Under the pieces are notes generated by a model. It had not been told where the DNA came from, did not search any database, and was given only the letters and a program-made list of their open reading frames with translations. A program made the translations under genes and the position numbers. A stretch of DNA of 45,408 nucleotides from Haloquadratum walsbyi J07HQW2 (GTDB lineage: Archaea; Halobacteriota; Halobacteria; Halobacteriales; Haloferacaceae): assembly GCF_000415985.1 (NCBI RefSeq), contig NZ_KE356561.1:2266417-2311824 (forward strand). Direction: 5' to 3'. This document shows, piece after piece, positions 4,380 to 45,408 of the stretch (within the stretch, counting starts at the first letter, position 1; each line of letters starts with the position of its first letter).

Positions 4380-4781
4380 ACTGTATTGTTTGCTTGTGGT
4401 GAATAAAAACGACGACGGTCAGTGCTGTATAGATGCGAGGCGAGTACGCCTTCGGTGGTCATAGAGCTTCAAAATCAAAGCCCACACCGCTTTAGCCCTG
4501 AAACGAAGTCATTAGATTGGAGATTCCGTCGTTCTGAATTAGTTATTTGACTACGGCTATGATATATAACATGTGTACTGATTGTGATAAGCATAAAATT
4601 TCCGTCAGATAATCTCATATATCAGGGTACAGAGGAGTCATCTCACGCCCGTTTGTAGTTCATCAACGAAGTGATTACAATACACAGAATCGATGATTCA
4701 AACTGATTATAAATACATTCGGTCGCCGTATGACGGTGATTTTCCAAAGGTCTTTGCCCTTGCCCCAGCTACCCGTACTCA
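4380..4781. other. Divergent intergenic region
   Basis: These 402 bp separate the aminopeptidase gene (minus) from the conserved haloarchaeal protein gene (plus). They hold the aminopeptidase TATA-like box and, about 65 nt before the right-hand start, an AT-rich TTATAAATAC stretch (around 4707-4716) that may serve the plus-strand gene. I see no RNA gene. Confidence 0.5.
4402..4409 (-). promoter_or_regulatory. TATA-like box of the M29 aminopeptidase gene
   Basis: On the minus strand TTTTTATT ends 22 nt before the ATG at 4379. This spacing fits a haloarchaeal promoter with a very short or absent leader. Confidence 0.5.
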
Positions 4782-36020: not shown

Positions 36021-36035
36021 GTGGCAACCGATTGT

Positions 36036-36389
36036 ATGCTTCTTATCACTGGGCTGGCAGGCGGGACGGGAACGACGGGGACGCTTTATGAACCGGGTGA
36101 GACTGCGCCATCGTATATGGGGGCGCCCAGATCCGAAGCCCCGTACACATGGATTTGTGATACGTTCTACCAAGTAGACTCTGGCGGTCAGCAACTAGAC
36201 ACAGACGATGGGGAGATTCGCGTCGCATTTGATAGACCAACGGTCCAAGGCTTCGAACAGCGCGATGAAGCTATCTCCGCGGCAAAGACACACATCCACA
36301 CCCAGTTTTCACGGATAGGGATCCACGCCGAACCCGACTTTTATTTGAATCCACCTGACGAAACCGATCACGTCTCGATCAACCCCTAA
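36036..36389 (+). CDS. DUF7113-like haloarchaeal protein
   Basis: 117 residues from ATG 36036 (a GTG at 36021 would add five). MLLITGLAGGTGTTGTLYEP, then TWICDTFYQVDSGGQQ, IRVAFDRPTVQGFEQRDEAI and AAKTHIHTQFSRIG match my memory of a small haloarchaeal core family annotated DUF7113. It is acidic and soluble, of unknown function. It is the last chromosomal gene before the tRNA scar and appears intact. Confidence 0.72.
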   Translation: MLLITGLAGGTGTTGTLYEPGETAPSYMGAPRSEAPYTWICDTFYQVDSGGQQLDTDDGEIRVAFDRPTVQGFEQRDEAISAAKTHIHTQFSRIGIHAEPDFYLNPPDETDHVSINP

Positions 36390-36480
36390 GTGCCTCTCAG
36401 GATCTCAGGTACTCGTCGTTTGAATGGGTTTTTTGTAGGCACAGAGAGCTCAGTGGCCATAGGACAGAGAGAGCGAAAAG

Positions 36481-36524
36481 AGCCTGAGGCGGGATCTGAA
36501 CCCGCGCTCTCGTCCTTACCAAGG
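36481..36524 (-). tRNA. 3' half of a tRNA-Thr(GGT) gene, attachment-site scar
   Basis: On the minus strand the sequence runs from the anticodon loop TTGGTAA (anticodon GGT) through the anticodon 3' stem GGACG, variable bases AGAGC, a perfect T-arm (GCGGG, TTCAGAT, CCCGC), the acceptor 3' strand CTCAGGC and discriminator T. The 5' half is absent: the bases that should give CGTCC, the D-arm and GCCTGAG are replaced by AAAAAAGACC and unrelated sequence. This is the standard product of tyrosine-recombinase integration into a tRNA gene, so it marks one end of an integrated element. Confidence 0.85.
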
Positions 36525-36558
36525 TCTTTTTTAAATTGACCGCTTCACGCCCACCACT

Positions 36559-36625
36559 GCTGGTTATCGACTTGACGCATTCCTTCTCATCCCGGGATGA
36601 CTACATAGGTATACAAATAACCAGC
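36559..36625. repeat. Nested palindromes just inside the element end
   Basis: GCTGGTTAT (36559-36567) and ATAACCAGC (36617-36625) are perfect 9-bp complements. Almost at their centre lies the perfect 12-bp palindrome CATCCCGGGATG (36588-36599). Possible binding or recombination site. Confidence 0.55.
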
Positions 36626-36695
36626 GGGTACAACATCGGGAGTCACAGGAGTACGGTCCAGAAAACATCGCACAGATTCAAACCGGCTACCTTTG

Positions 36696-37337
36696 TTACA
36701 TGCTCACAATCGAGTCGCTGGCGGGGAACGGCTCCAGTATAGAAACAGGCACCAGATAGTTGTAGTGACCGTACTTCGACTTCATTCGATCCCTATCGAG
36801 AATCGTCTCTTTCGTTGCCGCGCCAAAGAGCGTCAGCTTAGCACCCTCTAATTGCGCGGGAACGTAGTAATCAGAATTAACGCGTCCTTCTTTCACCGGT
36901 AAAAATTCGGCTTCTTCTGACTTGTCTTTATTTCAACCGTCCGTTCAGCTCCCTCGATCGAGACGTCAAAATCAACACCATCATCTGTCCATCCAACGAT
37001 CTCGGTATTTAGTTTCGGATCAGCACAGATGGCAAACGCCATCTCAACCCATAAGTCCAATCACATGTCGATCCTCGGGGTTCACACCCCAGGTGCTCGA
37101 CTTATTATCCCAGTCATCGTATTCTTCGAACGACTGGTTCCGCTCTCTCGCCATCTCACCGACCAGCCGGACATATCGAGGCGGTATTTCAACGCTGACA
37201 GTCACTCGTGAACTCGTCAATTCGCCCTTCTCGGTCGATAAGCCGATTCGAATTTGAGAACGGCAGTTGATGACTGTAGTGAACTCTCGCTCATACCCCT
37301 GTGGTCCATCGTTGTTCATCGGGCTCACTGCGCCCAC
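36696..37337 (-). pseudogene. Decayed PD-(D/E)XK nuclease-like protein gene
   Basis: Three frames together give one protein. The first (from 37337) has TVSVEIPPRYVRLVGEMARE and ends EDRHVIGLMG. The second reads EMAFAICADPKLNTEIVGWT, then DDGVDFDVSIEGAERTVEIK and TSQKKPNFYR. The third has EGRVNSDYYVPAQLEGAKLT and continues to FPASDSIVSM. The DFDV followed by EIK spacing is the D-x(n)-ExK core of PD-(D/E)XK nucleases. Two frameshifts inactivate the gene. The family of the rest is not known to me. Confidence 0.5.
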
Positions 37338-37506
37338 ATAACTACTTAGTTGGGCTGGCGATTCGTGCCGGGATCAAGGAGAAATAGCTAGATATCTTAT
37401 ATCGTCACCTCAAATATGATCAAACAAGTCTTCCACAACTAAGAGTGGCAGTTCGAATCGCCAATTAGCCGCCCAATTTATTCCACTCGGAGTGAAACAA
37501 CTACGT

Positions 37507-37764
37507 ATGTCAAGTGACTCAGACCCACGCGTGGAGGCGGAATCCACGATCAACGACAGTTATGGAACGACGATCCCAGCACCGATTCGACACGCACTTG
37601 ATGACACGCTTGAGCCGGGAGATACCGTTCGGTGGATTATCTCAGATGGAGAACTTTCGCTTGAGATCGTCCACGAAGAATACGGTGCGTTTGAGGACGT
37701 CGAACCGTTCGACGGGCCGGCGTGGGAGAGCGACACTGCAGCTGAGAGTGCTTGGAGCGAGTGA
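37507..37764 (+). CDS. AbrB-type (VapB/MazE-like) antitoxin
   Basis: 85 residues from ATG 37507, with an in-frame ATG at 37492 as alternative. ESTINDSYGTTIPAPIRHAL and EPGDTVRWIISDGELSLEIV form an AbrB-like swapped-hairpin domain. The acidic C-terminal tail (EDVEPFDGPAWESDTAAES) is the usual toxin-binding part. It overlaps the PIN-domain toxin gene by 1 nt (TGATG), so both are translated from one mRNA, and the pair should autoregulate. Confidence 0.85.
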   Translation: MSSDSDPRVEAESTINDSYGTTIPAPIRHALDDTLEPGDTVRWIISDGELSLEIVHEEYGAFEDVEPFDGPAWESDTAAESAWSE

Positions 37765-38207
37765 TGCAGGTAGTCTGTATTGATTCAAATATTGTTCTCG
37801 CCGCGCGAAATGCGAATGCGAAACGTCACGACGACGCTACGGCGATATTCAACGCGATCGATACCGGGGAGCTGCCCCGTGCGCGACTGATAAACTACGT
37901 TGTCCCCGAAATTCTCCATCCACTCCAGAAACGCATTAGCAAAGCGGCTGCATTCGAAACTCTTGATCGTCTGCAATCGAGTCGCGGGTTCGAACTTGTC
38001 TACGTCTCGAAAACCGTTCACCTATACGGCGAACAGTTGTTCAGAACCTATGAGGCGTTATCAGGGTCGGAATGGGTCGATTCGATCCTCACTGCGTACA
38101 TGCATAGTGAAGACATCGGATACATCTATTCGTTTGACGACGACTTCGACGTGTCTGATGATGTGACCCGACTCACGACCGCAATAAACCCATTCAAGCC
38201 AGATTGA
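37764..38207 (+). CDS. PIN-domain toxin (VapC-like)
   Basis: 147 residues from ATG 37764. The PIN active-site acids are visible: Asp6 in VVCIDSNIVLAAR, the Glu in VVPEILHPL, and Asp in EWVDSILTAYMH and YSFDDDFD. VapC-like proteins cut tRNA or rRNA when freed from the antitoxin. The gene is directly coupled to the AbrB-type antitoxin gene upstream. An in-frame ATG 12 nt upstream exists, but the overlapping TGATG start is preferred. Confidence 0.87.
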   Translation: MQVVCIDSNIVLAARNANAKRHDDATAIFNAIDTGELPRARLINYVVPEILHPLQKRISKAAAFETLDRLQSSRGFELVYVSKTVHLYGEQLFRTYEALSGSEWVDSILTAYMHSEDIGYIYSFDDDFDVSDDVTRLTTAINPFKPD

Positions 38208-38277
38208 GAGCTTTCAGCTGAGTTGGTTTCCCAACTCCACAGAGAAGTTTGACAACCAAATTCTTATTCTCCCAGTC

Positions 38278-38584
38278 ATGTCATCAGAGCATATGAGCAC
38301 AGAGTCTGACACCAATCAAGATCCCCCAGTTGGGATAACCATCACGCTCAATTACGACGACGAGTGGCGGGTGGCAAGCGATGAAGAGACAGATGTCACG
38401 AGTCAAGGAAAACCTCGATAAAGCACTCAAAGGATACTACGGAGAAAGCGAGTCTCCGAGCAATTCGGAACTTCGAGACATAGGTATTGATCCAGAACAG
38501 AATAGCTCTGGAGCGGCTCTCAGAGCTCGAAGATCAAGGGACTCTGGATGGGCTCGAAGAGCTGCGAGGCTGACAGAAATTTAG
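38278..38584 (+). pseudogene. HicB-like antitoxin gene with a frameshift
   Basis: The first frame (38278-38421, 47 residues) ends shortly after GITITLNYDDEWRVASDEET and DVTSQGK, the typical HicB start. The remaining part appears in another frame: ENLDKALKGYYGESESPSNS, then ELRDIGIDPEQNSSGAAL. The loop normally between SQGK and ENLDKAL (about six residues) is missing, so a small deletion caused the shift. No HicA toxin gene is visible on either side. Confidence 0.6.
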
Positions 38585-38906
38585 GAGGTTGAACCTGTTC
38601 AGAACCTCGCTGTCTGAGGGGTGTCCGCTGCGTTCTACCAGGTCTGGACACTCCGCCATTTACATCTCAGATAGAATGACCCCTGTCCCGGTGTGCCGGG
38701 AGGGCGCATAAGATATTTAATCTAATGACATGACGATTTGGTATCGTGTGTCTGTATGATATTGAGCGTTGAGGAACGCTGTTTCTCGATCTTTGCGAAC
38801 GGACGAAAGGTACCCACACCGGGAGAATCAAGCTTAAGAGCTTGTGCCTGGCAAAAACGGAGAGTTGCGTACCGCGATCGGTAGGCAAGTAGGCTGAGAG
38901 AATTCC

Positions 38907-39452
38907 ATGTCAACAAAAATAGAGCCCGATACGGTCGAGCATCTGGAAGGTGAAACAATCAATCGGTATGTGCTGCCAGAGGACGGGGAGACAGCGTTCT
39001 GGGTTGACACCTCCGCCAATTCTTGCTCTGTGACATGGGAAGCCTCAGACGAGTTCGAGGTCGAAGGCTATGTGGACTTCTTGTCAGGTCTTGACTGATC
39101 CGGAACTACGCTGGATTGCTTAGCCTCGTTTGATGAGAGAAATAAGCGACTCGGGACAGATGGCATTGAAACTGTACAGGATCAGCCGGATTACCCATCG
39201 GAATGTGCCTATCTAAGGGCTGAAGCCGAGGATCTCGACATGGAGTGAATTGAGAATGATCATACGAATGTGCTTGTGCTCAGCTCCAGTCCGTATAATG
39301 AGCGACTGTTCCACGAGATTTTCGACAACATGAGGCAAGTGCATACTGAGCCTGACTTTGATATTCCGTGTTCCAAGGGATTTGAACAACTAAAGAGAGT
39401 TGTCTCCCGAGACGGTGAAGATGGTTTCAACAAGAGCCAGAGATATAGCTGA
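38907..39452 (+). pseudogene. Unknown protein gene with two in-frame TGA codons
   Basis: One frame runs 182 codons from ATG 38907 to TGA 39450-39452, broken only by TGA 39096-39098 and TGA 39246-39248. The first part is TVEHLEGETINRYVLPEDGE, then AFWVDTSANSCSVTWEAS and YVDFLSGLD. After the first stop comes LDCLASFDERNKRLGTDGIE, and after the second VLVLSSSPYNERLFHEIFDN. All three parts have coding-like composition without indels. No family recognised. The first 63 residues could be made as a small protein. Confidence 0.45.
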
Positions 39453-39636
39453 GTAGATGTCGTCTCAGAAGTGCAAGTCATTGCGTTGGAGTTCTTCCTG
39501 AGAGCATTTCCAAATAGAGTGAGTTCGGCTCAGTCGGTCTCTGTTTCGATGTCTATGGTCATCGCCGTCTTGATGTGTGCGTTCAGTTCTTTGTTATTCC
39601 CCAGCAGAAGAGTTGGTTTGAGAGGAAATATACTGG

Positions 39637-39762
39637 CTAAGAGGACTCCTCCGGCAATAATACGCAGGGTTGCCTGAGTTCGGTGCAGTGTCCGTCGTTG
39701 TCGCGGTAGAGGCAGAAGTTTTGGAGTTCTTGTTCGTTGTTTTCTTGGATAGTGCTGCTCAT
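39637..39762 (-). CDS. Small Cys-containing protein
   Basis: 41 residues from ATG 39762. NNEQELQNFCLYRDNDGHCT and ELRQPCVLLPEES hold three spaced cysteines and a His, like a small zinc-binding protein. A TTTAAATAT stretch directly precedes the ATG. Downstream coding-like sequence (another frame) suggests it may be the start of a broken longer gene. Confidence 0.3.
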   Translation of the reverse strand: MSSTIQENNEQELQNFCLYRDNDGHCTELRQPCVLLPEESS

Positions 39763-39868
39763 ATATTTAAAAACGATGTCTCTGACAATTCAAAGGTGAG
39801 AACTACATGAATCAGGCTAAGCGGTTAGCCGAGGAACTCTCTAAACTGTAGGAGACTGACTTGTGGCA

Positions 39869-40161
39869 TCATCTCCGGGACTTGATCTTCTTGATTGATT
39901 CAGGTGTGTATGCTTGATCTCGGTGCTCTACGCCAAGGAGTACGACTTTGTCGCCGTCAGGGTCGAAGAACACTCTGTGGTCTAATTCGCCGGTTTTCAG
40001 TTTCAGTCGGAAGATTTCCAAGCCTTGCTTGTTAATGAATGACGTGTTTTGTCCGAGGGGACCGTTTCTGAGTTCTGCGATCCTACATCTAACCTGTTTC
40101 TGGACTGTTCTTCCAGCTTTTCAGATCTTCAACAGGCTCCTTCTCGGATCTCAAGCTTCAT
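39869..40161 (-). pseudogene. Decayed RelE/ParE-like toxin gene
   Basis: The start MKLEIREGA (ATG 40161) overlaps the RHH antitoxin gene by 11 nt. The reading then shifts to EPVEDLKSWKNSPET and again to VQKQVRCRIAELRNGPLGQN, then EIFRLKLKTGELDHRVFFDP, DGDKVVLLGVEHRDQAYTPE and a stop at 39869-39871. The strand-rich FRLKL...HRVFF pattern and the tail KVVLLGVEHR are those of RelE/ParE toxins. Two frameshifts inactivate it. Confidence 0.65.
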
Positions 40162-40396
40162 CCGACAACCCGAGTTCCTTGTCTAACTCCTGAAGCGTGT
40201 ATCGGTCTTCCTTTGCTTCTTCGTACTCTTTGACACGTTTCTGAAGCTTCTCTGCGACTTCAGGTCGTAGTACCAAGTCCTCTCCTACCTTGTCCCGCAA
40301 TGCTTCACGGACGTACTCGGAGACGCTGTTGTAGTTCTTTCTCTCAACTACAGCCTCAACCTCGCTTTTCTGATCATCTGGCAGTTTAATTGTCAA
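40151..40396 (-). CDS. Ribbon-helix-helix antitoxin (RelB/ParD-like)
   Basis: 81 residues. MTIKLPDDQKSEVEAVVERK and YNSVSEYVREALRDKVGED form a CopG/ParD ribbon-helix-helix; the C-terminal part (KLQKRVKEYEEAKEDRYTLQ) is helical and acidic, suited to wrapping a toxin. It overlaps the decayed RelE/ParE-like gene downstream. The antitoxin frame itself is intact, so it may now act only as a DNA-binding protein. Confidence 0.82.
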   Translation of the reverse strand: MTIKLPDDQKSEVEAVVERKNYNSVSEYVREALRDKVGEDLVLRPEVAEKLQKRVKEYEEAKEDRYTLQELDKELGLSDEA

Positions 40397-40681
40397 CGAA
40401 GCTATAAAAAGTCATCATAGTGATACTATGATAAGACAGATATGAAAATTGACCTGTATATATGATGACAAACCTATATTAGCAAAAGGTTTGGAAAACC
40501 AGCACAAGCCTGGTTTAGATACAGTAGGAGAAATCTCCGTAGATATTCACTCAGAAGAGAAATCTGACGGGTTAGTGCAACAGTCTCTACGTGCCATTTC
40601 GTATACCTGAGACTGTATGGCTGATCTACCCTAAATTTATCAATCTGTGGTCACAATGTACATACAAGAGGTGACTTGTGA

Positions 40682-40984
40682 ATGGGCAGTACCAGAGTCA
40701 ACTTCCGTCTCCCGGAAGAGTTGATCCAGAAAGCGGACGTAGCAGCCGAGGTCAGCAAAAAAAACCGGACTGAGATCGTCAAAGAGGCACTCCAAGAATA
40801 CTTAGACGACATCGAGGGCGACGAGAAATTCAAGGAAGCAGTCGTAGAACTCTACCTCAACGATCAAATCAGATTCGAAGTACTCAAAGAGTTCATCGGA
40901 CGGCAGGACGCTGAATCAGTACGTGCCTCCAAAACCATTCTGGACCAAGGTGAAGATCTAGCCGACGACCTCGCAGGATTATAA
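40682..40984 (+). CDS. Ribbon-helix-helix antitoxin paired with a PIN-domain protein
   Basis: 100 residues. TRVNFRLPEELIQKADVAAE and KKNRTEIVKEALQEYLDDIE form a CopG-type ribbon-helix-helix DNA-binding domain; the acidic C terminus (VRASKTILDQGEDLADDLAG) probably binds the toxin. It lies 12 bp before the PIN-domain gene, in the same orientation, and should regulate their joint promoter. Confidence 0.85.
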   Translation: MGSTRVNFRLPEELIQKADVAAEVSKKNRTEIVKEALQEYLDDIEGDEKFKEAVVELYLNDQIRFEVLKEFIGRQDAESVRASKTILDQGEDLADDLAGL

Positions 40985-40996
40985 AGGCTTGAGAGA

Positions 40997-41482
40997 ATGA
41001 TCGTAGCGGATACAAGCGCCCTTATTTCTATAGCCTCAACCGATCTCCTCGACACCTTCCTAACAGAGTTTGACGTCCACACCACGGATACAGTAGTCGA
41101 AGAACTGGAGGAAACCAGCGAATACGACGACCGGCACGGAGAAGCCGCCCAAACAGTGCTCGACAACATCGATCAGATCAAGGCCCATCATGTCCAGAAA
41201 GAGTTCACTTCTTCCCGTATAGATCAAGGAGAAGGCGGCTGCGCACTTCTGACCAAAGAAACAGAAGCAGAGTTCCTGATCACCGACGATCTCCGGGCAC
41301 TACCCGAGCTCCAGAACTTAGCAGACGCAAAAGCAGCTATCTCACCAATCATCCTGAAAGCACTCGTCAAAAGAAACGTGCTTGAACAACAACAAGCAGT
41401 GAATAAACTTGACGAACTCGCGGAACAACGGGACTGGCTCGGCGCACCAATCTACGGAAGAGCACGGAACTTGTTTAACTAA
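40997..41482 (+). CDS. PIN-domain protein, probable toxin
   Basis: 161 residues. MIVADTSALISIASTDLLDT carries the first PIN Asp, VVEELEETSEYDD the Glu, and DQGEGGCALLTKETEAEFLI followed by TDDLRALPEL the later acidic residues. This is the PIN subclass often linked to RHH antitoxins, with a probable endoribonuclease function. The gene is intact and immediately downstream of the antitoxin gene. Confidence 0.82.
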   Translation: MIVADTSALISIASTDLLDTFLTEFDVHTTDTVVEELEETSEYDDRHGEAAQTVLDNIDQIKAHHVQKEFTSSRIDQGEGGCALLTKETEAEFLITDDLRALPELQNLADAKAAISPIILKALVKRNVLEQQQAVNKLDELAEQRDWLGAPIYGRARNLFN

Positions 41483-41708
41483 ACCACGTCAGTTTATTCC
41501 TCTATCTTCTTCAAATCATGTCTGCGAAAATGGATATCAGGAACATCACCGTTATCGAGTTCTCGCAGAATCGATTCTTTCGTTGTCCCCAATAGAGACA
41601 TTCAATAGCAAAATTTAACCGATTTACCGTGTAGTATATAAAAGATATTCTAATCGGTCAAAATACCACACCGATATCTAAGTATATGAGGTACTCGACG
41701 AGGGACCT

Positions 41709-42836
41709 ATGCAACTCTACACGGCTGCTGAAACAGAAACTGGCACAAAAATTGTTCCATATGAGCAGACCGGGTTCAAATCTGAGGAAACATTTGAAGA
41801 CCAACTACAAACCCATCCAGAACTCCTGATGAACGAGCGGGTATTTCTCATTGGTCGACAAGTCCAATTGGATGGACAATACGCCGATCTCGTTGGGCTT
41901 GATCGATGGGGGAATATCATCGTTATTGAGCTAAAAGTCGGGAGTTCTGGGTCCGGGTCGGCGAGCGAAGAGACAATTCTCTCACAGCCGCAGAATTATG
42001 CTCGGTCATTTGAATCGTTCGGGTATGACAATCTCAATGAGGTCTATCAGGAGTATTGTGACCGGATAGAGCGTGGAAAATATGACATTAGCAAGGACTC
42101 CGCTCATGATGGCACTCTCCAGACGGACTTTGAGACGGTGTTTGGGGATTCAATTGAAAAACACCAGTTTAACAGTACACAGCGGATGGTCGTCGTCGCA
42201 GAGGAAATCACTCGACGAACAGAGCGAAACGTGAGGTATCTTCTTGAGCAAGGACTCAATTTCCAGTGTAGGGAGATACAGACATTCCATCTATCAGGTG
42301 ATGATGACTCCAAAACGATGCTGACGAGTTCCACTGTCGTTGATTATCCAACAAGCAGGGTCCGCCCGAGGAATCGACCAAACCCTACGTATCCAAGGCT
42401 GGTCAACAACATTCTCGAGAGGTCACACCCAAAATTCCAATCTGTAACGAAAGCGGCGTCAATCAGTGACCTGTTCCCAGAGGGGATTGATATGCGCGAG
42501 CCTCGACTCGTCAGTCAGAACACGCATCATCCGACATCAATCAGATATCGACTCGCTCCAAAACCAGATGACGGAACCATAGTGATTGCAATTGACGCTC
42601 AAGACGATACTGTAGACGCGGTCTCAGAAGTTCAAGAGATGCATGCGGATTTTTCCGAGCAGGGGCTTGAGGTCACTGGGAATCAAACATACCGTGTCGT
42701 CACCCGCAAGTGGGAGATCGAGAGTGCCGACGGTCTTGATGAAACCATGCGCGACGAGATTGCGGACACTTTCGCGATGTTGGTGAGATTAGGTCATGAA
42801 GCGTTTGCTGATTCGCAGAGAGAGATCCACGGCTGA
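41709..42836 (+). CDS. NucS/DUF91-like PD-(D/E)XK nuclease
   Basis: 375 residues. The nuclease core lies at the N-terminal end: TFEDQLQTHPELLMNERVFL (Glu), GQYADLVGLD (Asp) and NIIVIELKVGSSGS (ExK). Together these form the PD-(D/E)XK metal site seen in NucS/EndoMS and DUF91 proteins. The C-terminal half (TQRMVVVAEEITRRTERNVR, then a long variable part) may bind DNA or a partner. Classic NucS has an N-terminal DNA-binding domain ahead of the nuclease; here the nuclease comes first, so it is a relative rather than NucS itself. It lies in the integrated element and may act in defence or element maintenance. Confidence 0.78.
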   Translation: MQLYTAAETETGTKIVPYEQTGFKSEETFEDQLQTHPELLMNERVFLIGRQVQLDGQYADLVGLDRWGNIIVIELKVGSSGSGSASEETILSQPQNYARSFESFGYDNLNEVYQEYCDRIERGKYDISKDSAHDGTLQTDFETVFGDSIEKHQFNSTQRMVVVAEEITRRTERNVRYLLEQGLNFQCREIQTFHLSGDDDSKTMLTSSTVVDYPTSRVRPRNRPNPTYPRLVNNILERSHPKFQSVTKAASISDLFPEGIDMREPRLVSQNTHHPTSIRYRLAPKPDDGTIVIAIDAQDDTVDAVSEVQEMHADFSEQGLEVTGNQTYRVVTRKWEIESADGLDETMRDEIADTFAMLVRLGHEAFADSQREIHG

Positions 42837-43616
42837 CAGGATGTTGAATCATTGATTCGCACCGGTCAAATTGACGAATGAAAAAGTCACACAGTTATAT
42901 CACTAAGCTGGGAAGTACCAGAGCTGCGGTGGGAGACGGGATTGAGAGTGGTAATAGGTACTGTAAGCATCGACCGACGGCTTGTCGGCTAAGAACACTG
43001 AGATAGCGTCTATCGGTTCAAACGATCGAGAGATTAACTCACGATCCAATTCCACTCCGAGGTGTTTAGCCTCCTCCCTTTCTTTCAGAGGTGAGCCCGC
43101 AACAGTAGGTCAAGGACAATTACCACTCGGAATAATACCCATTTTGGGGCGGTCGACTGGAAGGGGGGGGGCCGATATGACATCCGTACGTACTCGCTTG
43201 GCACTGCGTACCCGCGTACGGGAGGGTCTGAACTCGGGTTGCCGGATTACAGAGCTGTGTCCACGCCGTATTATTATAGGTAATTACTTTTATTCGCAGT
43301 GGATAGGCGAGAAATTATAACAGACCCGGCGCGAATCCGGAACACGACCTTCTTGCTCTACTGACGCTTGTGCGTGGCACTCCGATCAGTCTCTATGAGA
43401 AATCAAGTGTACTATGCTCTCAGTACTGTTGAGTGACTAATCGCAGAAACGGTTCCGACCAGGGCTGATAACCCGGCCTCTGGATGCCGTTTCTCCAGAA
43501 GGGATGCTGTCGCTACCCAAGTGGATGCCTAACCTCCCCACGTTAGCGAGGCTCTAAGTGAGCCTCACGTGAATATAGGCGTGTAACAGGGATATTCCTC
43601 CTTATCATCTGACATT
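42837..43616. other. Gene-free region of the element
   Basis: These 780 bp have no supported gene. They contain a run of nine G residues near 43166-43174 and a strong hairpin at 43539-43571. Local composition is more GC-rich than most of the window, unlike normal spacers here. Confidence 0.45.
43539..43571. repeat. Long hairpin upstream of the LAGLIDADG gene's 3' end
   Basis: CACGT plus GAGGCTC pairs with GAGCCTC plus ACGTG: 12 base pairs around a 5-nt loop (TAAGT), with a 4-nt bulge (TAGC). It may be a terminator for the minus-strand gene at 43617-44123 or a protein-binding site. Confidence 0.55.
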
Positions 43617-44123
43617 CTATAGTTTACTAGCCGACTGGACTATCTCTTCAATTTCATCGGTCGCGATTGAGTTGGTCGCGCTGATGTAGTTGATATCGTC
43701 TCGGAGCTCAGCCAGTTCGATCACCTCATCTGCGGTGAGTTGTCGACCGGGTTGGAGCAGTTCCAGCGCGGATCGCCAGTTCTCATACGCATTTTGCTTC
43801 GCCGAATTGAGAAACTCAGTGGAGGGGTTTTGCTCAAGATACTGGTCGATCAGTTCGATCAGCTCATGACACTCGGCTCGGCTTGAGATTACCCACTGAT
43901 AGCCTTTCATCGTCGTATTGACCGTTCCTAATCCGTAGAGTTGACACTGATTCTCAAGTAGTTCTTGCTCATTCTTGCCCATCGATATCGCCATTTTTGG
44001 TCCGTAGTAGACGTCATATCGATACCGATCATCGCGGTTGAAGATGACGAAGAATGACCCCTCGCCTGCGATGAGGCCCATCGTGTACGCGAGAGAGATT
44101 TCACTGTGGTTGGTTGGTTGCAT
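43617..44123 (-). CDS. LAGLIDADG homing-endonuclease-like protein
   Basis: 168 residues. The motif SLAYTMGLIAGEGSFFVIF is a LAGLIDADG helix with the catalytic acid (GEGSF), and YGLGTVNTTMKGYQWVISSR with CHELIELIDQYLE matches the core beta-alpha pattern of the single-motif family. One motif per chain implies that it works as a homodimer. It is not embedded in an intron or intein, so it is a free-standing endonuclease of the element. The C-terminal extension (QLTADEVIELAELRDDINYI) is helical. Confidence 0.78.
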   Translation of the reverse strand: MQPTNHSEISLAYTMGLIAGEGSFFVIFNRDDRYRYDVYYGPKMAISMGKNEQELLENQCQLYGLGTVNTTMKGYQWVISSRAECHELIELIDQYLEQNPSTEFLNSAKQNAYENWRSALELLQPGRQLTADEVIELAELRDDINYISATNSIATDEIEEIVQSASKL

Positions 44124-44444
44124 TGATTGTGTGTTTCCGCTGTTCGTAGGACGGTGCCGCCGCTCGTCGACTGCGGATTATTTCTTATAGGATAGTAGTC
44201 ATTAAGCGATGTTGTAACCGCTGATAGCGGCTTGGTGAGGGGGACTTATTTCCATGAATCGTAGCCTTACACAGAAAGATGGAGTGCCACCACGGGCGTC
44301 TATTGAGCCTCTAACGCAGATATAGCACAAGATTTTAGATACGATTGATAGTTTGGTAACTGCGAGTGGGAGGTTACATACCAGCCCCAGTACGTATCGT
44401 AAGAAAGCCAACAAATTAAACATCCAATTCAGTGATTTAGATAT
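44124..44444. other. Divergent gap between the LAGLIDADG and exonuclease genes
   Basis: These 321 bp carry AT-rich promoter-like stretches near 44175 and 44330. No frame or RNA is supported. Confidence 0.4.
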
Positions 44445-45089
44445 ATGGATGATTTCGTTTTTCACCACTCACTCAATCCGGATGAGATTGCCACTCGATA
44501 CGCCAGCATCGACATTGAGTGCAATTCCATCGATCCGACAAACGGTCAGACAGTAGCGATCGGAATCGGCCTGAAAGACACTGTTGCTGGTGAACAGTCT
44601 GTTGACATTCTCACGCTCGGCGGGGCAATGTGCGATGAGGAAACGCTGATCCGACGCGCCTTTGAACGAATCAATGAATTTGATCCGACCGCGCTCGTGA
44701 CGTTCAATGGTCGGGAGTTCGATCTCGATTACCTCTCCGGACGTCTCGCTATACTTGATTCCAATCAACAGATTGAGCTTCATTGCGAGGACAACCACAT
44801 CGACCTGTTTGTTCCGCGGAAGCAGAAGGCGGATGAGCAGGGTATCAAATGGCCGTCACTGGAGGAGGTATTGGAGGGTCATGGACTCGCAATCCAGCCG
44901 ACGCACTGGCGTGGCGAGCAGCTCACAAACAAACGGTTCGGTGAAGAACTGGCTCCCAAGTATCTCCAAGCGATTACAGAGGATCGTACAACCACTGTCG
45001 ACGAACTCGAAAGATTGATTCACCAGTATGTGGAGGGCGACATCGAAGCCAATCTTGTGCTGTACGAAACAGATGCTGGTCGTCGGTAG
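44445..45089 (+). CDS. PolB-like 3'-5' exonuclease (RNase H-like fold)
   Basis: 214 residues. The three exonuclease motifs of the DEDDy type are visible: Exo I ASIDIECNS (Asp and Glu), Exo II TFNGREFDLDYL (Asn-x4-Asp type) and Exo III YVEGDIEANLVLY (Tyr-x3-Asp). This matches the predicted 3'-5' exonuclease family related to the proofreading domain of B-family polymerases; no polymerase domain follows. It should digest DNA (or RNA) from the 3' end and lies between the LAGLIDADG gene and the integrase. Confidence 0.85.
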   Translation: MDDFVFHHSLNPDEIATRYASIDIECNSIDPTNGQTVAIGIGLKDTVAGEQSVDILTLGGAMCDEETLIRRAFERINEFDPTALVTFNGREFDLDYLSGRLAILDSNQQIELHCEDNHIDLFVPRKQKADEQGIKWPSLEEVLEGHGLAIQPTHWRGEQLTNKRFGEELAPKYLQAITEDRTTTVDELERLIHQYVEGDIEANLVLYETDAGRR

Positions 45090-45092
45090 TCG

Positions 45093-45408
45093 TCACCAAA
45101 TCTGCTCAGCGGCGTCGTTACGAGTTTCAGCGTCGGAGTGAAGATATTTCATCGTCGTGGTAACGCTCTTGTGACGAAGCTGTTCCTTGGCGTGATGTGG
45201 ACCAATGTGATTCGCCCAGTAGGTTGCTACCCCGTGGCGAATCGAATACCACGTGATGTTTTTATGTTCCGGAATGGGGAGATTTCCCTCGTCAACGAGA
45301 CGACTCAGCAGGTAGTTACATGACTTCGAACTGTACGTGCTTCCTTGCTTCGTGAGCCAGAGATCGTCCCGGTCTCCGTACTTATCAAGCGCTGCTCGCT
45401 CCTCCAAC
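45093..45408 (-). CDS. Tyrosine recombinase/integrase, C-terminal part (runs off the window)
   Basis: Only the last ~105 residues are present; the gene continues past the right edge. The catalytic features of XerC/D-type integrases are intact: ITWYSIRHGVATYWANH (Arg-His, the RxxH-like box), AKEQLRHKSVTTTMKYLHS (His, then the nucleophile Tyr). It ends close to the convergent exonuclease gene. With the tRNA-Thr scar at 36481-36524, it is the likely enzyme that integrated this element. Confidence 0.9.
   Translation of the reverse strand, partial: LEERAALDKYGDRDDLWLTKQGSTYSSKSCNYLLSRLVDEGNLPIPEHKNITWYSIRHGVATYWANHIGPHHAKEQLRHKSVTTTMKYLHSDAETRNDAAEQIW

Follow-up and report, generated by a model that had tools for sequence, protein, structure and literature searches.

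A truncated tRNA gene at positions 36481-36524 of a 45,408 nucleotide stretch of Haloquadratum walsbyi J07HQW2 DNA (NZ_KE356561.1, positions 2,266,417 to 2,311,824; hereafter 'the window') is almost certainly the attachment site at the distal end of a genomic island, about 10.0 kb long, that integrated site-specifically into this genome. The island has an intact tRNA gene at one end and a direct repeat of the 3' part of that gene at the other, its integrase gene lies inside it next to the intact tRNA, and its interior is absent from two related genomes, G010 and C23. We refer to this island and its integrase as B, and to different integrases found beside tRNA-Thr on two other contigs of the assembly, contigs A and C, as A- and C-type.

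The displaced tRNA half and the two ends of the island

The minus-strand sequence of window 36481-36524, CCTTGGTAAGGACGAGAGCGCGGGTTCAGATCCCGCCTCAGGCT, matches positions 29-72 of the 72 nt intact tRNA-Thr(GGT) with 43 identities in 44 nt, a resemblance that is not due to chance given its E-value in a search of the genome against itself (4e-14). The one mismatch falls in the T-loop (TTCAGAT vs TTCAAAT) and is an A58>G change in the tRNA numbering that we assigned. A58 is nearly universal in tRNAs, and its replacement fits a copy that is no longer under selection. The original prediction, made from the window alone, had described 44 nt with perfect stems and no 5' half. Its location, strand, tRNA identity and missing 5' half all stand, the last because TTTAAAAAAGA, which precedes CCTTGG at the half copy, is unrelated to the intact tRNA; the perfect stems do not, since besides the T-loop change only the T-stem is complete. 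The anticodon stem is represented by its 3' strand plus 2 nt of its 5' strand, and the acceptor stem by its 3' strand only. Neither ARAGORN nor Rfam calls the half copy as a tRNA gene.

As had been anticipated, the minus strand to the right of the window carries an intact tRNA-Thr(GGT), at G000:C1:2313718-2313789, 1.9 kb beyond the window edge and 10.8 assembly-kb from the half copy; its 3' 44 nt, expected to equal the half copy, do so save for the one base. The element thus runs from the half copy towards higher coordinates, as proposed, and ends at this gene. The start of the B integrase gene lies within the element, on the strand of the intact tRNA and 138 nt downstream of it. A tyrosine recombinase had been placed at the right edge of the window, and one is there, but only its C-terminal third, the rest being on the next contig. 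The open reading frame at the window edge matches a PHROG integrase (E=3e-14) and shows the Box II arginine, histidine and tyrosine regions, with the first arginine box falling in the gap between the two pieces. Both pieces align in order, at 88-89% identity, to the contiguous integrases of G213, G252, G229 and G233, with ~55 aa missing in the gap (Table 1).

Table 1. Features at the distal end, in the interior and at the integrase end of the island (window positions unless marked C1)
Feature	Position	Strand	Evidence
DUF7113 protein gene, first outside the element	36021..36389	+	Pfam PF23425 E=3e-46
Sequence outside the element, downstream of the tRNA before integration	36390..36480	-	resembles A-type tRNA-to-integrase spacer
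Displaced 3' half of tRNA-Thr(GGT), very probable distal attachment site (attR-type) of the element	36481..36524	-	43/44 identity to positions 29-72
Conserved distal arm next to the half copy	36525..36690	.	71-74% DNA identity to G213, G252, G229
Distal-end gene, weakly DUF6998-like, two frameshifts	36693..37211	-	unbroken in homologues at this end of the G213, G252 and G229 elements
PrlF/MazE-like antitoxin	37507..37764	+	NCBIfam NF007429 E=3e-6 (below curated cut-off); Pfam PF15937 E=7e-4
PIN-domain VapC-like toxin, start overlaps antitoxin stop	37764..38207	+	Pfam PF01850 E=8e-9; TIGR00028 E=6e-9
Ribbon-helix-helix regulator or antitoxin	40151..40396	-	Pfam PF01402 E=2e-5; RelB/ParD-like in NCBIfam
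Ribbon-helix-helix antitoxin-like protein	40682..40984	+	Pfam PF01402 E=1e-6
PIN-like putative toxin, PADLOC candidate PDC-S70	40997..41482	+	PADLOC E=3e-9; Pfam PIN_4 weak (E=0.01)
NucS-like nuclease, PADLOC candidate defence family PDC-S11	41709..42836	+	PADLOC E=4e-26; NCBIfam NucS E=7e-5
LAGLIDADG-2 structured RNA	43446..43570	-	Rfam RF03094, 124 bits vs gathering score 94.9
LAGLIDADG homing endonuclease	43617..44123	-	Pfam PF00961 E=2e-8; PADLOC HEase E=9e-12
PolB-type 3'-5' exonuclease-like protein	44445..45089	+	Pfam PF03104 E=6e-10
Tyrosine recombinase, C-terminal third (104 aa)	45093..45408, runs past window edge	-	88-90% to G213, G252, G229, G233 integrases
Tyrosine recombinase, N-terminal 245 aa	C1:2312845-2313579	-	on contig next to window contig

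The source genome is a composite metagenome assembly (PMC3630111), and the passage from window 45408 to the contig that bears the tRNA is a scaffold join consisting of two 20-N gaps that flank a 978 bp contig. This small contig contains an Orc1/Cdc6-like gene and the C-terminus of another integrase, and it aligns over its full length (83%) with G010 DNA in which an A-type integrase precedes orc; contig A of the source assembly, which bears a tRNA-Thr and the beginning of an A-type integrase, aligns immediately before it on the same G010 DNA. Given the whole-length match to an A-type integrase and orc, the 978 bp contig is best read as a misplaced piece of another, A-type element, and for the same reason we dropped the Orc1/Cdc6-like gene as a candidate replication gene of the B element. 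Correction for the misplaced contig gives an element length of about 10.0 kb, in the direction originally proposed, and this figure replaces the earlier one of at least 8.9 kb. The half copy, the distal arm and the integrase C-terminus all lie on one gap-free stretch, the window itself.

The assembly has two further tRNA-Thr genes with the same sequence as copy B, namely A (C1:8724-8795) and C (C1:2635890-2635961), and each of the three is followed by a different integrase. Upstream of A and C, 380 and 461 bases, respectively, are identical or near-identical and end exactly at 50-N gaps. The contigs in question (L038, L039) are short, carry A- or C-type integrases, and have been scaffolded inside unrelated genes. 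We considered three real, element-borne duplications of tRNA-Thr(GGT) and rejected them on account of the short contigs between 50-N gaps and the upstream identity extending to the contig ends. The simplest reading of a composite population genome is that copies A and C represent a single tRNA-Thr locus as it occurs in other strains, with different elements probably occupying it in other cells.

The proposed course of events is as follows. A circular element whose attP copied the last 44 nt of tRNA-Thr(GGT) would have recombined with the host gene by means of its own tyrosine recombinase, with strand exchange in the anticodon-loop region. This would leave an intact tRNA at the integrase end, its 5' part from the host and its 3' part from the element, and would have pushed the host's original 3' half, together with the old downstream flank, to the far end, now window 36481-36524. 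We infer the recombination itself, as well as any present mobility of the island and a role of its cargo in defence or addiction.

Cargo and the element family in haloarchaea

The interior of the island encodes two toxin-antitoxin-like pairs, a homing endonuclease with its RNA, a PolB-type exonuclease and a NucS-like nuclease; the last of these shares 35% identity with a nuclease of the G252 island. Scans of the B island's proteins against Pfam, NCBIfam and PADLOC recognised no restriction-modification system, and Pfam, NCBIfam and PHROGs gave no virion, packaging or replication hallmark anywhere in the 10 kb. Judging from these gene families, to which a putative defence role can be assigned, it is most likely an integrative defence and addiction island. 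Within it, the LAGLIDADG-2 RNA is full-length and sits directly downstream of the LAGLIDADG endonuclease reading frame. The PrlF-PIN cassette and its upstream region (window 37321-38224) are 91% identical over 904 bp to copies located elsewhere in G010 and C23, and G010 has three copies of the 174 bp upstream of the cassette.

Both ends can be tied to one element family. Among 293 genomes drawn from the order, 11 others carry an integrase that is 60-90% identical over the N-terminal part, and tRNA-Thr(GGT) adjoins it in every one (directly upstream in 10, in an altered arrangement in G300); integrases from the same draw at 42% identity or less lie mostly beside tRNA-Gly or tRNA-Glu. In 8 of the 11, a pattern search located another 3' half of the tRNA on the same contig and strand, at a distance of 9.9-30.6 kb. 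G213, G252 and G229 have DNA homologous to window 36525-37213, the stretch just inside our half copy, at their own far half copies, and on the strength of this shared distal DNA the half copy belongs with the B integrase. Members of the integrase's family also share a conserved tRNA-to-integrase spacer. As we define it in this analysis, the family comprises islands that combine an integrase of this clade at tRNA-Thr(GGT) with the conserved distal arm, and the source island has both. At the altered locus of G300 (L193 2982-5345), the arrangement is reversed: a tRNA-Thr copy lacking the 3' 15 nt precedes a B-type integrase, on the far side of which there is an intact tRNA-Thr.

Restriction-modification genes are present in all eight relatives whose element is bounded by a half copy, of type IIG or methyltransferase type in six and type I in two. 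Profile searches of the same eight genomes, about 29 Mb in all, returned by our count some 29 methylase loci of this kind; by this measure about 0.15 methylase loci are expected in the 149 kb of the relatives' elements vs the eight found, one per element, with the qualification that the enzymes of G029 and G047 are almost the same and the eight cases are not all independent. No virion, packaging or replication hallmark was recognised among the scanned proteins of the relatives' larger islands.

History of the site and competing explanations

G010 and C23 (G012) retain the same gnd-ferredoxin or tRNA-Thr neighbourhood without the element's DNA at the site, so that the region is not conserved in all relatives, the outcome that would have told against an integrated element. 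Island DNA in these two genomes is limited to short repeats and one toxin-antitoxin cassette located elsewhere. The tRNA-Thr site of C23 is occupied by another element, and no perfectly empty site was found in any strain of the source lineage. Outside the island, window 36390-36480 together with the half copy is 83% identical over 139 bp to the flank downstream of the intact tRNA on contig A (C1:8630-8767), and the same flank follows the intact tRNA-Thr in G010; a match to DNA that follows an intact tRNA-Thr is what would be expected of the pre-integration site. The adjacent DUF7113 gene is 97% identical in G010, where the same spacer and a degraded tRNA half adjoin it. Since the outward flank resembles the arm on the integrase side of A-type elements, it may itself be the remnant of an earlier element. 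The tRNA-Thr site has been used repeatedly, and in G010 a half tRNA is directly followed by an A-type integrase.

Compared with G010, the source genome has an inversion of ~45 kb that extends from window 4710 to the gnd gene and takes in both the island and tRNA-Thr (window about 4421-4710 and C1:about 2315590-2315745). Window 4710-19360 matches G010 256175-233930 in reverse, and in G010 this stretch lies between the ferredoxin gene and a tRNA-Gly. Another G010 locus (L074 9649-11000) has an intact tRNA-Thr, the A-type spacer and then a helicase-like gene, in which a putative intein-like insertion follows GGDDDQ.

Repeated use of the site raises an alternative in which the half copy stems from an older, different element and forms the inner junction within a tandem array, with the B element ending elsewhere. 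The A-like outward flank, the other integrases at the same tRNA on contigs A and C, and the half tRNA ahead of an A-type integrase in G010 would all suit it; against this, the interior beside the half copy is homologous to the far ends of the B-type elements in G213, G252 and G229, and sequence searches found no further tRNA-Thr half inside window 36525-45408. A tandem history at this site is likely, but we regard the half copy as B's own far end and its origin from an older element as very unlikely. Wrong scaffolding of the metagenome as the sole link between half copy and intact tRNA deserves attention in a composite genome (PMC3630111) in which an A-type contig of 978 bp sits inside the integrase gene and two tRNA-Thr contigs inside unrelated genes. 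Yet the half copy, distal arm and integrase C-terminus adjoin without gaps, and contiguous sequence of other genomes repeats the same order, which renders the idea extremely doubtful.

Descent from an integrated HF1-group halovirus that used the same tRNA would account for the kinship of the integrases: HRTV-24, a virus of this group, carries a tRNA-Thr(GGT)-like attP with an adjacent integrase that is 64% identical to the island's and branches within the clade of the island's integrase in the tree. HF1-group proviruses are, however, about 77 kb long (PMC7230728), and the Pfam, NCBIfam and PHROG scans recognised no structural, packaging or replication hallmark in the island, so that we rejected a full HF1-like provirus for its lack of virion genes and regard a remnant of one as highly improbable. 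As for chance or a non-integrative partial duplication of the tRNA gene, nothing specific speaks for it, while the E-value of 4e-14, the precise 44 nt ending at the discriminator base and the same arrangement in eight relatives speak against; that recurrence refutes it, and we assign it virtually no probability. The explanation we retain is a B island that ends at its own displaced tRNA half.

Relation to known systems

Archaeal elements routinely integrate at tRNA genes (PMC8371274), and strains C23 and HBSQ001 were reported in 2011 to have a half tRNA-Thr at this same locus (PMC3119063). Within the literature searched, what seems to be new is the element itself, the population-level multiplicity at the site, and an integrase clade with restriction in all of its bounded members. 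The analysis delimits an integrative element in an archaeon that is among the commonest in salt lakes, presents one tRNA gene as a recurrent entry point for several integrase types within one natural population, and in other genera reveals tRNA-Thr islands that each carry a restriction system. It also offers a clean system in which to ask whether haloviruses mobilise, or are mobilised by, defence islands that share their integrase and att site.

A broader proposal can be built on this last point, namely that the tRNA-Thr(GGT) islands form a coherent haloarchaeal mobile-defence family, putatively moved or excised by the virus integrase in a satellite-like manner and carrying restriction directed against such viruses. 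The sharing of integrase and site with HF1-group viruses and the restriction cargo are observed and mobilisation by viruses is only putative; we hold the proposal as a whole to be unlikely. HRTV-24 has a type IIG restriction-modification gene close to its tRNA-Thr attP and integrase (L180 3001-6044). Its product, gp40, shares 31-32% identity with type IIG enzymes from three islands and less with the others, and at these levels of identity we did not adopt HF1-group viruses as the source of the islands' restriction enzymes.

The closest known counterpart at the locus itself is the 6.7 kb region between tRNA-Thr1 and its partial copy in C23 and HBSQ001 (PMC3119063); the partial tRNA-Thr that we find in G012 at C3:103049-103105 has the coordinates given there for C23. 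That region shares with the source island the host tRNA, the neighbours (gnd, ferredoxin) and the type of displaced 3' copy, but its integrase is gone, its interior is different and its spacer is C-type rather than B-type. The restriction-modification islands at tRNA-Thr(GGT) in G213, G252, G229, G208, G029, G047, G235 and G248 have integrases of the same clade (66-89%) at the same site, and those of G213, G252 and G229 also have the distal end in common with the source island; they carry type I or type IIG restriction-modification, whereas the source island instead carries the NucS-like nuclease, toxin-antitoxin pairs and homing endonuclease.

HF1-group viruses, for which tRNA-Thr as attP and two proviruses at tRNA-Thr have been published (PMC7230728), share with the island the integrase clade, the tRNA-Thr(GGT) site and the spacer, but they are tailed viruses with 77 kb genomes; PHROGs and Pfam found no virion or packaging genes in the island, which at about 10 kb also falls short of the ~77 kb of a Hafunaviridae provirus. 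SSV-type integrases, like that of the island, are archaeal tyrosine recombinases that target tRNA genes; they differ in having the attP inside the integrase gene, which is split on integration, whereas in the island the att core lies outside, 138 nt upstream of the integrase start, and the gene is left whole.
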